Origin: a virus
Virus record (IMG/VR): IMGVR_UViG_3300007511_000184
Location: 1-21,368 of that record
DNA length: 21,368 bases
Strand: one strand, 5' to 3'
Under the pieces are notes generated by a model. It did not search any database. It was not told where the DNA came from and saw nothing but the letters and a program-made list of their open reading frames with translations. The position numbers and the translations under genes were made by a program. Positions 1,385 through 21,177 of the stretch are shown one piece after another. How positions within the stretch are numbered: position 1 is the first letter of the stretch; every line of letters starts with the position of its first letter.

Positions 1385-1679
1385 AATAAGACACCAATAA
1401 TCGTGTCTTATTCGTTGTCTTATTACAAAATGCTTTAGTAGATAGGGTTTGAGTACCCTATTAAGACAATAAGACAATAAGACATAATATAAAAGAGAAT
1501 AAAAGTTTTAAAAAGTTAGAGAGAATTAACTATGAAAAAAGAACAACAAAGAAAACCAAAAAGACTCTCCGGCAATCTCTCTCAGAAACTTTGTCTTATT
1601 GTCTTATTCTAGGAAAATCAAGGACTTACACGTGTCTTATTGTCTTAATACAATGTCTTATTGCAAACTTTGTCTTAAT
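1385..1679. repeat. array of twelve TGTCTTATT-type repeats; candidate origin or regulatory switch
   Basis: TGTCTTATT or TGTCTTAAT occurs on the plus strand at 1404, 1416, 1592, 1600, 1633, 1641, 1654 and 1671. The reverse complement occurs at 1385, 1460, 1468 and 1476. Several copies are tandem with an 8-bp period, overlapping by one base. The two inward groups are separated by an A/T-rich stretch (1485-1531). A 7-bp hairpin, ATAGGGT/ACCCTAT, lies at 1442-1461. Repeats of this kind beside an A/T-rich segment are typical of phage or plasmid origins and of cooperative repressor sites. The copies can also pair as RNA: 1460-1476 is the exact complement of 1633-1649. The stretch 1372-1827 otherwise holds only the 26-codon frame, a hairpin and a palindrome. 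Confidence 0.8.
1532..1612 (+). CDS. possible 26-aa basic peptide inside the repeat array
   Basis: ATG at 1532 to TAG at 1610-1612 encodes a short peptide with a very basic N-terminus (MKKEQQRKPKRLSGN) and a hydrophobic end (LCLIVLF), the latter encoded by two tandem TGTCTTATT repeats. A weak GAGAG lies upstream. It could be a leader peptide whose translation affects folding of the surrounding repeats, or a chance frame. Nothing else supports it. Confidence 0.3.
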   Translation: MKKEQQRKPKRLSGNLSQKLCLIVLF

Positions 1680-3934: not shown

Positions 3935-4950
3935 ATATGAATGACATATTGGCGAACGCCATCAACGATGCTGTGGAACATAAGCACGAAGTCCACAGTG
4001 GACTTATTGAGTCGCACGACTCACCACCGGAAACCGTCGCAGAAACGGATCAGGAAGACAGAGTAACGACGAAGCCAACAGTAAGTGTGAAAGGACTAGA
4101 TGAGAAAGCAGTTCTAGTAAGCGTTAAACGTCGCATGTACTCGCCGTATAAACTAGACCAAGAGGAGTCTAAGAATTATGGGGCAGGTAACGTGAACAAA
4201 CACTTGTTCGAGGGGCGTAACAACAAAGTCAAGGAAACGATAAGCAAGTTCTCTGATGTATATGTATATGTAAAAGAGAACACCGTACCTTGGAGTACCG
4301 GAGTTGATATGCTGAACATAGACCACTACATGGAGTTTACTAGCGGATTGCGACAACTCGTAGACCAAGCGAACCAAGCAGTTAACTCGTTGTACGCTTG
4401 TTGGGACGACGAAGTCCAAGCGGACTTGGATAGACTTGCAAAGATAGCACAAGCGAAAGGGAAACCGAACCTTGCAGACCCTAGCGACTATCCGTCAGCA
4501 GATGAGATGAGAGCGAAGTTCAGCGTAGATGTAAGATACATGCCCGTGCCAACGACCGGCGACTTCAGAGTAGTAATATCAGATGAGGACAAGGCGTCGT
4601 TGCAACAGCAGTTAGATGATGCAGGTAACAACGCAACCAAGCATGTACTTGAGTCAATGATAACGCCTATGAAACGTGCCATCGAGAAGTTAGCAGTGCC
4701 AATCGGCAAAGATGGTAGTGTGTTCAGAGATACGTTAATCGACAACATGGTAGATGTCGCAGAGCGTATGAATAAAGTGAACATCAGCGACGACCCTGCA
4801 ATCCAAGAAAAGATTAACGACCTAAGAAGTCTTGTTGGAGCGTACGCTAGTCCGATAGGTAAAGACAACTTGCGTAGTAGTCAGACTGTACGTGAGAAAG
4901 CAGTTAATCAGATAGATAGCCTAGTTAGTCAGATGGCAGGGTTGGTGTAG
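3931..4950 (+). CDS. DUF3150-like protein of the CobS/CobT-like gene set, 339 aa
   Basis: The start overlaps the previous stop (ATGA), with AAAGGAG upstream. The protein is soluble and largely helical. After a variable, acidic first 50 residues comes VSVKGLDEKAVLVSVKRRMY, followed by YKLDQEESKNYG and helical segments to the C-terminus, where residues 226-339 look coiled-coil-like. From memory this resembles DUF3150 proteins, which sit between a MoxR/CobS-like ATPase and a CobT-like VWA protein on mobile elements; the same order occurs here. The role is unknown and presumably it is part of that complex. Codons 20-25 are encoded by a copy of the dispersed palindrome, directly followed by a second inverted repeat, TGAGTCG-CA-CGACTCA (4008-4023). 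Confidence 0.6.
   Translation: MNMNDILANAINDAVEHKHEVHSGLIESHDSPPETVAETDQEDRVTTKPTVSVKGLDEKAVLVSVKRRMYSPYKLDQEESKNYGAGNVNKHLFEGRNNKVKETISKFSDVYVYVKENTVPWSTGVDMLNIDHYMEFTSGLRQLVDQANQAVNSLYACWDDEVQADLDRLAKIAQAKGKPNLADPSDYPSADEMRAKFSVDVRYMPVPTTGDFRVVISDEDKASLQQQLDDAGNNATKHVLESMITPMKRAIEKLAVPIGKDGSVFRDTLIDNMVDVAERMNKVNISDDPAIQEKINDLRSLVGAYASPIGKDNLRSSQTVREKAVNQIDSLVSQMAGLV
3989..4005. repeat. dispersed palindrome, copy e (intragenic)
   Basis: AAGTCCACAGTGGACTT, a perfect 17-nt palindrome inside codons of the DUF3150-like gene (encoding parts of Glu-Val-His-Ser-Gly-Leu). It lies 59 nt after that gene's start, unlike the other copies. Two bases beyond it begins a second inverted repeat, TGAGTCG-CA-CGACTCA (4008-4023). 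Confidence 0.85.
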
Positions 4951-9503: not shown

Positions 9504-9522
9504 AAAGTCCACTGTGGACTTT
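9504..9522. repeat. dispersed palindrome, copy f
   Basis: AAAGTCCACTGTGGACTTT, perfect, with T at the centre instead of A. It lies 51 nt upstream of the gene at 9574, directly after the last gene of the preceding unit. The right flank TTAGC matches that of copy d. Confidence 0.9.
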
Positions 9523-18234: not shown

Positions 18235-21177
18235 ATGGGGATTCAACAATTTTTAGAACTAGTAGTGCCGGACAAGGGGGCAAAGATAATAGCCCTAGCA
18301 ACCCCAACGGGTAGAGGCAATATTTGGTTCAAGTACAAAAAGTACGACAGCGCCAAAGACGCAGCGGCAGCAGCTGAGTTCTTCGACGACAACGGGGAAA
18401 CAGTTTACTTCGCGGTTAACTCATTTGGTGATTGGTACGAAGATGAGCGGAAAAAGAAAAGGCGCATACGAACTCAAGAGAACGTAGTAGCGTGCCGCTC
18501 GTTGTATGATGACTTCGACGTCGGCGGGAACGACAAAAAGAAGTACGCAACGAAAGAAGATGCCCTAGCGGACATCATAAGATTAGCAACAGTACTGAAG
18601 CTAACTCCAACGATTACTTCGTCGGGTGGTGGTTACCACTGCTACTTCTCTTTAGATGAGGACGTCGACCAAGATACTTGGAACGAACTGTCAGCACTTA
18701 AACGTGATGTCACGACCCATATGGGGTTGAAGGCAGACCGTGCTGTGGACATGGATAGTGCTCGTATACTACGACCGGTAGGTACTCACAACCGCAAGAC
18801 TAACCCACCCGTTGAGGTTAGGCTAGTTAAATTAGGTAAGCAATACCCGACTGAAACAGTGCGAGATAGACTCCAAGCGTACATAAAAGAACATGACGTA
18901 CAGCCTGCGCCTACTAACAACTACAGTAAGTGCAAAGGGGCTAACCCGTTCGCAGCGGCGTTAGGAGATTACCCGACAGCAGACGCAAACATAATTGCAG
19001 AACACTGTAGTGCTATCCGCGAGTTCAGAGATAAGGGCGGTGACATACCCGAGCCTCATTGGCACAGAGCCATCGGTGTAGTTAAACACTGCGAAAACGG
19101 TGCTGAGATAATTCATGATTGGAGTAAAGGGTACAAGGGTTATACCTTTGAAGAAACTCAAGCGAAAATCGATGAGTGGGAGTTCGGGCCGACATCGTGT
19201 GTTGAGATGGATAAGCACATTGAGTGTATGAAAGAATGCGCCATGTCTGAGAAGTGTAAGTTCTCAATCCAACTTGGCAACTCAGAAACCGCTGAGTCCT
19301 CTAAGGACGAAACGGAAACGGACGACGAACAGCCTGCGACAATACCGGTAATAGAAGGGCAGAAAATTCCGTATTGGCCGATGAGTGGCTACCGTTGGAA
19401 CGGTAAGGCGTTGTCTAGGTCGATCAAAGATGACGACGGTGTTGTCCACTGGAGACCGTTCTGTAGGTCTTTCATATATCCTATCAACCGAATACAAGAC
19501 TCCGAGGGCACTTGGGTAATTCATTGGCGAGCAAAAGAAAAGAACGGCAAGTGGCGTGAGTTCTTTATGCCTACATCAGAGTTAGCATCGACTGACATGA
19601 TGGCGAAGACCCTAGCATCGCACGAAGTATTCTTAATGAGGACAAACAAATCGAGGAACGACATGGCTGAATTTGCAGAAGGTCTCATCGAAACACTCCA
19701 AGCGTGGCGTATGGAAACTAAAACATACAAGCAGTTTGGTTGGACGGAAGACCGTAAAGGGTTCGTAATAGGAACCAACATGATTAAGTTAGACGGTGAG
19801 GAAGAAGTACTGTGTGACGAGGATATGCCAGGAGACGTAGTTGTTAACTTCGGAACTTCGGGAACCTTAGAGCAGTGGACTGCCAACATCGACACTTTAT
19901 ACAATAGACCTGGAGCGGAACCGTTTCAGTTCGCTTTATGCCATTCAATGGGTTCTGTACTTGTTGAACTTATGGGTTCCTCGAACTGGCACGGTCTACC
20001 GCTCGCATTCACTGGCTATGGTGGTACGGGTAAATCTACTGCGGCTAAGATTGCTTGTGGATTTTATGGAAACCCATCTCACATGGAGCGCCAAACGGGC
20101 GAACAAGGTTCCACACTAAACGCCGTTATTAAGCGTATCGCTATTATGGGCTCAGTCCCTATGCTACTAGATGAGTTCTCGGGTAGAGCACCCGACGAGC
20201 TGACTAGAACGGGTTACGCTCTAGCTAACGGGCGAGACAAAGAGCGACTTGGTTCCAACGGTAAGTTTAATACCGTCGGCGGTCAGTGGTTCAAGAATAG
20301 TTTCATAACGTCGAACGACTCGCTGCACGAGAACATAAGTAAGTTACCAGCGGGTTATAGAGTTGAGGCGACCCAACTACGCTTCTTCGAAGTGCAACTG
20401 CCGGAGGATTTTAGAAGCACTGTGTTCCCCGACATCACGCAGTCGTTCGTCGAAGACCACATGGACAATGTGTATGGTGAAGCGTGTCGACCGTTCATTA
20501 GGTTCATTATCAAGAACCACGATTGGGTGCGTAGGCAAATAACAGCCGCGCGTAGTAAGTTTAACCCACAATCCAACGAAGACAACAAAGAACGTTTCTA
20601 CCGTGACACTATTGTAACTGCAGTAGTAGCAGGTAAGATTGCTCAGAAGTTAGGCTTAGTAGCCTTCGACATGGCGGGTATGAAGAAGTGGGCGCTTGAC
20701 CAAATCGTTCAGATGCGTGAGAGCCGTAAGGAAAGTAACACGGACATCAGTGAACACGTAGCGTCGTTCATCTCGACTCTGCCGGGACGACTCATCATTA
20801 CGCTTCGCTTCGGTGACGCTAGAGCTAAGAAGAAAGAAATGCCTTTGGAACACTTGAGAGCACCTGCTGTTGGTAGAGTTTGTACCGAGGATAAGAAGGT
20901 GTACATAATGTCTAAGGCAGTTGGCGATTGGTGTAAAGAGCATGGAGTAGCACCGGCAGCAATGAAAGAAGAATTAGACCGAGGCGGTTACTTAATATAT
21001 CATGCTGATGGTAAGCCTGCCGCTAAGTGTTACATCGGTTCGGGGACTACGGTTCCAAGTGGACAGACAAGATGTTATGAGTTTAACTATGGTAAGTTGT
21101 TCGGTGATAACGCCCCACTTAACTTGGTTGAAACCGACGAAGGTGTTGCTACTGAAACACTGTTAGATGTAGAGTAA
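18235..21177 (+). CDS. primase-helicase (AEP-like primase plus DUF927-type helicase), 980 aa
   Basis: A weak AGGT precedes ATG 18235. The N-terminal part looks like an AEP/RepB-type primase: RSLYDDFD with D92, D93 and D95, a SSGGGYHCYFS segment with H135, and RILRPVGTHNRK (177-188). A cysteine set at C322, C331, C335 and C341 may bind zinc or Fe-S. The C-terminal half is a DUF927-like superfamily 3/AAA+ helicase: Walker A GYGGTGKST (594-602), Walker B MLLDEF (643-648) and a SNDS sensor (693-696). A single polypeptide would both unwind DNA and prime it, replacing separate DnaB- and DnaG-like proteins. A palindrome copy and a terminator mark it as a separate unit. Codons for Arg-Leu-Ile near 851-853 carry an ACGACTCAT copy. 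Confidence 0.85.
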   Translation: MGIQQFLELVVPDKGAKIIALATPTGRGNIWFKYKKYDSAKDAAAAAEFFDDNGETVYFAVNSFGDWYEDERKKKRRIRTQENVVACRSLYDDFDVGGNDKKKYATKEDALADIIRLATVLKLTPTITSSGGGYHCYFSLDEDVDQDTWNELSALKRDVTTHMGLKADRAVDMDSARILRPVGTHNRKTNPPVEVRLVKLGKQYPTETVRDRLQAYIKEHDVQPAPTNNYSKCKGANPFAAALGDYPTADANIIAEHCSAIREFRDKGGDIPEPHWHRAIGVVKHCENGAEIIHDWSKGYKGYTFEETQAKIDEWEFGPTSCVEMDKHIECMKECAMSEKCKFSIQLGNSETAESSKDETETDDEQPATIPVIEGQKIPYWPMSGYRWNGKALSRSIKDDDGVVHWRPFCRSFIYPINRIQDSEGTWVIHWRAKEKNGKWREFFMPTSELASTDMMAKTLASHEVFLMRTNKSRNDMAEFAEGLIETLQAWRMETKTYKQFGWTEDRKGFVIGTNMIKLDGEEEVLCDEDMPGDVVVNFGTSGTLEQWTANIDTLYNRPGAEPFQFALCHSMGSVLVELMGSSNWHGLPLAFTGYGGTGKSTAAKIACGFYGNPSHMERQTGEQGSTLNAVIKRIAIMGSVPMLLDEFSGRAPDELTRTGYALANGRDKERLGSNGKFNTVGGQWFKNSFITSNDSLHENISKLPAGYRVEATQLRFFEVQLPEDFRSTVFPDITQSFVEDHMDNVYGEACRPFIRFIIKNHDWVRRQITAARSKFNPQSNEDNKERFYRDTIVTAVVAGKIAQKLGLVAFDMAGMKKWALDQIVQMRESRKESNTDISEHVASFISTLPGRLIITLRFGDARAKKKEMPLEHLRAPAVGRVCTEDKKVYIMSKAVGDWCKEHGVAPAAMKEELDRGGYLIYHADGKPAAKCYIGSGTTVPSGQTRCYEFNYGKLFGDNAPLNLVETDEGVATETLLDVE

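Follow-up and report, generated by a model that had tools for sequence, protein, structure and literature searches.

The DNA analyzed here, which we call the window, is the 21,368-bp IMG/VR virus record IMGVR_UViG_3300007511_000184 (positions 1-21,368). Its plus strand carries the early and replication module of a phage, with genes for a MoxR-like ATPase, a VWA protein, a family-A DNA polymerase, an exonuclease, a VRR nuclease, a SNF2 helicase, an AlpA-like protein, and a DUF927 primase-helicase. On the minus strand, the left end of the window holds the start of a likely small terminase gene. A direct DNA similarity search against known phages returned nothing useful and the phage collection held no close relative of the window phage; among named phages, Pseudomonas phage Rollin and Rhizobium phage RHph_TM3_14A come nearest, with about 30% identity in the polymerase. 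Close relatives in IMG/VR number in the dozens. Searches for tRNAs and against Rfam gave no match. Using MoxR or primase patterns, we found no prophages or relatives among GTDB species genomes, and therefore neither a host nor att junctions were obtained.

Within this module, 1.1 kb to the right of the likely small terminase gene (a neighbor that is kept in nearly all relatives), lies a dense cluster of a short repeat. In the 295 bp from 1385 to 1679 we find 12 exact copies of TGTCTTA[T/A]T, nine of them TGTCTTATT and three TGTCTTAAT, with starts at 1385-, 1404+, 1416+, 1460-, 1468-, 1476-, 1592+, 1600+, 1633+, 1641+, 1654+, and 1671+. As the original prediction had it, eight copies on the plus strand and four on the minus strand are arranged around an A/T-rich stretch, and the 8-bp tandems that it pointed out are real (1460/1468/1476, 1592/1600, and 1633/1641). 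Only two other exact copies occur in the whole window (16561 and 17297). The commonest 8-mer is present nine times in the cluster, whereas no 8-mer exceeds three copies when the local 1.4 kb is shuffled (300 shuffles) or four copies when the whole window is shuffled (60 shuffles); multiple short repeats in a non-coding region, at a density far above chance, are what is expected of an iteron origin. A+T makes up 71% of 1385-1679 and 86% of 1485-1520, compared to 55% of the window, and the segment beside the triple tandem is also A/T-rich in relatives, as is the segment adjacent to the repeats in iteron origins. The features of the cluster and of its proposed reader are as follows.

1385-1393, minus strand: iteron 1, TGTCTTATT, exact match
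1404-1412, plus strand: iteron 2, TGTCTTATT, exact match
1416-1424, plus strand: iteron 3, TGTCTTATT, exact match
1460-1484, minus strand: iterons 4-6, triple tandem with 8-bp period (TTAAGACAATAAGACAATAAGACA on the plus strand), exact matches, found in almost every relative irrespective of its repeat unit
1485-1520, no strand: A/T-rich segment (86% A+T) adjoining the triple tandem, candidate DNA unwinding element
1592-1608, plus strand: iterons 7-8, double tandem with 8-bp period, exact matches
1616-1628, plus strand: perfect IHF-consensus site AATCAAGGACTTA (WATCAANNNNTTR), at a fixed offset after the double tandem
1633-1649, plus strand: iterons 9-10, double tandem, exact matches
1654-1662, plus strand: iteron 11, exact match
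1671-1679, plus strand: iteron 12, TGTCTTAAT, exact match
18235-21177, plus strand: DUF927 primase-helicase, 980 aa, proposed initiator and helicase (Pfam DUF927, 5e-24; PHROGs primase/helicase; PDB sequence match 5dgk)
20875-21099, plus strand: predicted C-terminal winged-helix domain (residues 881-955), proposed iteron reader (column tracking; SaPI Rep model match)

The repeats are conserved in relatives, a point that the original prediction had raised: the cluster is present in nearly all loci with enough upstream sequence. Of the 44 loci from a first MoxR search, 42 have an enriched 8-mer cluster upstream of the MoxR-like gene; L106 ends short of the cluster site, L088 ends approximately where the cluster should begin, and L091 is weak. 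A second search found the cluster in another 22 of 25 loci, and in the three loci without it the upstream sequence is shorter than 1.6 kb or the contig end is uninformative for another reason. Near-identical contigs make up many of the loci, so that the locus counts are not independent. Further primase-bearing contigs (G022, G023, G025, G026, G028-G033, and G039), most of which are without the MoxR region, yielded no new linked cluster in the sequence parts examined.

Relatives share a common layout: a triple tandem of minus-strand copies (8-bp period) is followed by an A/T-rich segment and a variable stretch, and then come two plus-strand copies, again with an 8-bp period, an IHF-type site, and more copies. 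The double tandem follows the start of the triple tandem by about 106-131 bp. The repeat unit differs by lineage (TGTCTTAWT, TGTCTAAWT, TGTCATAA, TGTAATAA, ACGTCATAA, and partly TGTCTCAAT), and the copies within one genome share the altered unit of their lineage. That the 12 sites are unequally spaced, lie in both orientations, and change together points to recognition of all of them by one protein; such concerted change between lineages is the behavior of binding sites for one trans-acting protein.

One 63-kb relative (locus L091, contig G003) has a degenerate or rebuilt cluster of TGTCTCAA copies with no triple tandem, and its gene order is circularly permuted. The position directly left of the repeats, occupied in the window by gene 563-1063, is highly variable: close relatives with the same repeats carry two apparently unrelated families there (for example, MNKNQKT... 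and MLDTKAINRKIGG...AGHAY), and L069 and L104 are among the loci concerned.

The perfect IHF-consensus site is found about ten bases past the double tandem. Among 33 non-redundant loci, WATCAANNNNTTR is perfect in 14 and has at most one mismatch in 28, compared to 0.17 and 3.1 in shuffles, respectively. Its offset is mostly constant among relatives, such that the site keeps a fixed place, and it is inverted in some clades. The consensus used is that of PMC10380432, and the site would be bound by IHF only in a host that has this protein. We also followed up the GC-skew check proposed with the original prediction: in six of seven long contigs, the detrended cumulative GC skew reaches its minimum less than 3 kb from the cluster. 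An origin would fit this result but is not proven by it, and the signal is confounded because gene direction also changes near the cluster.

To look for the protein that reads the repeats, we used ten genomes that have both the repeat cluster and the primase-helicase. Iteron position 6 is T in six of these genomes (the TGTCTTATT set) and mainly A in the other four (G006, G002, G015, and G016; the TGTCTAAAT set), and the A6 phages G006, G015, and G016 retain two or three T6 copies. In the predicted winged helix of the primase-helicase, 5 of 75 alignment columns split exactly by iteron base 6 (S/A/Y893V, K931R, Y933T/V, I934L, and F950L/I). The remainder of the protein has 9 such columns of 877, and twelve other proteins together have 13 of 3026. 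Among all 210 four-versus-six groupings, the true one scores best for the winged helix, and the comparison with the twelve other proteins gives a Fisher p of ~5e-5; the boundaries of the region were picked after inspection of the alignment, and the p-values are therefore descriptive. In a tree of eleven other genes, the two A6 groups fall in different clades: G002 branches basally in the T6 clade, and the T6 phage L030 does so in the other (A6) clade. These placements imply that the iteron base switched at least twice and that the winged helix followed each time. Based on the column tracking and the structural model described below, the best candidate for the reader of the repeats is the DUF927 primase-helicase, which would act via its C-terminal winged helix. 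The other candidates tried were the AlpA-like protein, rejected with 0 diagnostic columns of 57, the terminase small subunit, with 1 of 91 between T6 and A6 phages, and gene 563-1063, which is an unlikely reader given that same-repeat relatives carry an apparently unrelated gene in its place (L066 versus L069).

We also compared the primase-helicase with known structures. In a profile search of the PDB, residues 536-851 match the SCCmec Cch helicase (5dgk; E 2e-9), indicating a homologous helicase core. An AlphaFold2 model of residues 785-980 (mean pLDDT 72) has as its best structural match the C-terminal region of SaPIBov1 Rep (8tch; Z 8.4 over 111 residues), and other matches include an oriT-binding winged-helix protein (5vfy; Z 8.1) and Cch (5dgk; Z 6.7). 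A Z of ~8 is in the middling range and would be weak if alone; the predicted fold resemblance is more credible because two of the top four matches are C-terminal domains from the very helicase family to which the sequence search had pointed. The model of the full-length protein was unusable (pLDDT 46). The C-terminal profile also matches 8ydl, a PDB entry for a viral fusion glycoprotein (E 4e-5), which we left out of the evidence.

The site itself, its conserved layout, the concerted change of the repeat unit, the IHF-consensus site at a fixed offset, the tracking of the repeats by the winged helix, and the fold resemblance all support the replication origin that was one of the options raised originally. 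We propose, with a probability of about 0.8, that 1385-1679 is the replication origin of this phage, best read as one of the SaPI/SCCmec-like kind. We also consider a fuller account to be likely, in which the DUF927 primase-helicase would bind the 8-bp iterons by its C-terminal winged-helix domain and assemble on both arms, a host bending protein such as IHF would fold the site between the arms, and the adjacent A/T-rich segment would melt. The same primase-helicase would be loaded there as the helicase, and probably as the primase too, for the phage family-A DNA polymerase, and replication would start at the cluster.

Other functions for such a cluster can be envisioned. The early operon begins just downstream of the cluster, which contains a promoter-like sequence within its repeats (TTAAGA-16-CATAAT, 1461-1488), and the early operator of Mu likewise combines repeats with an IHF site. 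The locus could accordingly be a multi-site operator and no origin, at which an early regulator (possibly the primase-helicase) and IHF cooperatively repress the early promoter. We find this explanation unlikely: the promoter match is weak (8 found versus 4.1 expected), a MarR-like protein goes undetected by tblastn in several cluster-bearing contigs, none of the 57 columns of the AlpA-like protein is diagnostic, and the only protein found with a DNA-reading domain that tracks the repeats is the replicative primase-helicase. Autorepression by this same protein is possible as a second role compatible with an origin, since the promoter-like sequence lies among the repeats and could be repressed by the initiator as well. 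The adjacency of the likely small terminase gene in nearly all relatives would suit a packaging (pac) site, or a partition site, with the small terminase or a different phage protein as its reader. However, with 1 of 91 columns diagnostic between T6 and A6 phages the small terminase does not track the repeat sequence, and we noticed no partition genes, making a site of this type quite improbable.

The arm-type direct repeats, triple tandem, and IHF site of the cluster resemble lambda attP, and some relatives carry tyrosine integrases, as would be expected if the cluster were a phage attachment site with integrase arm-type sites and IHF. We nevertheless view attP as very improbable. The near-complete contigs G016 (57.6 kb) and G017 (55.3 kb), as well as the 44-kb contig G001, have the cluster without a detectable tyrosine integrase, a search for serine recombinases found none, and the integrase gene, if present, adjoins the primase gene at some 15-20 kb from the cluster. 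The final alternative, also from the original prediction, is an RNA attenuator or switch with competing hairpins around a 26-codon leader. The two arms are indeed perfectly complementary within the window (1460-1476 with 1633-1649, and 1468-1484 with 1592-1608), but this is a by-product of having repeats in both orientations; similarly, the leader-like frame is present at 1532-1612 but absent from the closest relatives. The consensus RNA fold comprised iteron copies only, with no predicted pairing beyond the repeats. Across 24 sequences no pair shows a one-sided (G-U) change, direct copies that are unable to pair mutually change in concert equally well, and there is no Rfam match, leaving this idea with almost no chance of being correct.

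In the course of this analysis we observed that tyrosine integrase genes near the primase gene (in G002, G003, G014, G015, G025, and G026) differ in size and orientation. Some members have them and others lack them, a pattern of lysogeny genes being acquired or lost repeatedly at a single place.

The proposed replication origin can be compared with a number of known systems. In SaPI and SCCmec, a helicase C-terminal domain binds the origin iterons, according to PMC7581432 (which for SaPI cites Ubeda et al. 2007), and the C-terminal domain of SCCmec Cch2 binds the iteron region even in isolation (PMC7581432). The original prediction had remarked that an 8-bp period is short for iterons; such a period fits origins of the SaPI/SCCmec kind, given that the SCCmec iteron is 5 nt (PMC7581432). 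The window phage is like SaPI Rep/ori in its putative helicase initiator, with a C-terminal domain that would recognize short origin iterons and SaPIBov1 Rep (8tch) as best structural match. In contrast to SaPI, the window phage belongs to a lineage of tailed phages and has primase and helicase regions in one 980-aa protein, and its iterons are 8-9 bp and accompanied by an IHF-consensus site. In addition, the cluster is upstream of the proposed initiator gene and 16.5 kb away from it, whereas the SaPI origin is just downstream of its initiator gene; near the primase-helicase gene we found no second repeat cluster that could be a directly downstream origin of the SaPI/SCCmec type. The likeness to SCCmec Cch/Cch2 consists of the helicase-region match to Cch (5dgk) and of family-A polymerases in both systems. 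SCCmec differs as a chromosomal cassette with a separate primase and with 5-nt AAGTG iterons beside the helicase gene; its origin is likewise a putative one.

In satellite phage P4, the alpha protein is a fused helicase and primase that initiates replication (PMC7145576). The window protein resembles P4 alpha by description, as a helicase-primase fusion and candidate initiator, and its helicase family is different (DUF927). Like the window cluster, the P4 origin has 8-bp iterons in both orientations. A second repeat cluster like P4 crr was not found in the window phage. Iteron plasmids use a separate Rep initiator together with host DnaA/DnaB, and their iterons are ~17-22 bp. The window cluster shares direct repeats, an A/T-rich segment, and an IHF site with these plasmids, whose origins (R6K, pSC101, and RK2 type) have direct repeats, an A/T-rich segment, and often IHF (for general reviews, PMC4980987 and PMC5043065).

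Of the named relatives, Rollin (OR577172) has a homologous primase-helicase (~25% identity) and eight copies of TTGCATA in the first 700 bp of its record, a unit that is almost absent from the remainder. This cluster has a triple tandem (9-bp period) followed by an A/T-rich run and also a perfect IHF-type site; we count it as a separate parallel in favor of the origin reading, with the same components as the window cluster. It differs from the window cluster in its unit, its 9-bp period, and the order of its elements, and the record does not annotate it as an origin. Positions 1-420 of OR577172.1, beside the TTGCATA cluster, hold six AAAAGGTAG/CTACCTTTT inverted pairs as a second repeat system. 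Rhizobium phage RHph_TM3_14A has two perfect IHF-type sites within an A/T-rich non-coding stretch, with no clear iteron cluster.

Two additional motifs in the window are distinct from the iterons.

1150, 1357, 2231, 2987, 5173, 7482, 9758, 11319, and 20788, all plus strand: octamer CGACTCAT
524-538, 1123-1137, 1792-1807, 2568-2583, 3990-4004, and 9506-9520: six perfect palindromes AGTCCAC(N1-2)GTGGACT

The octamer, often extended to ACGACTCATAGG, occurs nine times on the early-gene strand of the window and never on the other strand. Across 34 related loci, there are 94 sense and 0 antisense copies in 296 kb of the early side and 4 sense and 0 antisense copies in 138 kb of the structural side, and the octamer is found in all three reading frames. 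It marks the early module, possibly as an early-mRNA motif, a Chi-like site, or a priming site. The palindromes are mostly between early genes and look like operators or small terminators; they are also present in the closest relatives (L009, L010, L012, L013, and L066) and not in other clades.

The origins of most uncultured phages are unknown, and here a probable origin can be located in some fifty contigs by sequence alone. The analysis also proposes a specific domain and specific residues (893, 931, 933, 934, and 950) that would read this origin, which makes the DUF927 primase-helicases, named for a domain whose function is unknown, testable as proteins of origin recognition and links phage replication to that of SaPI and SCCmec. 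We see roughly even odds that the cluster and primase-helicase of these uncultured tailed phages, as a widespread lineage, form a portable origin/initiator module whose iteron-domain pair repeatedly switched specificity in a matched way. If true, this matched switching would amount to a naturally occurring set of orthogonal origins in a single group of phages, and its iteron/initiator pairs of differing specificity could be used in binding assays.
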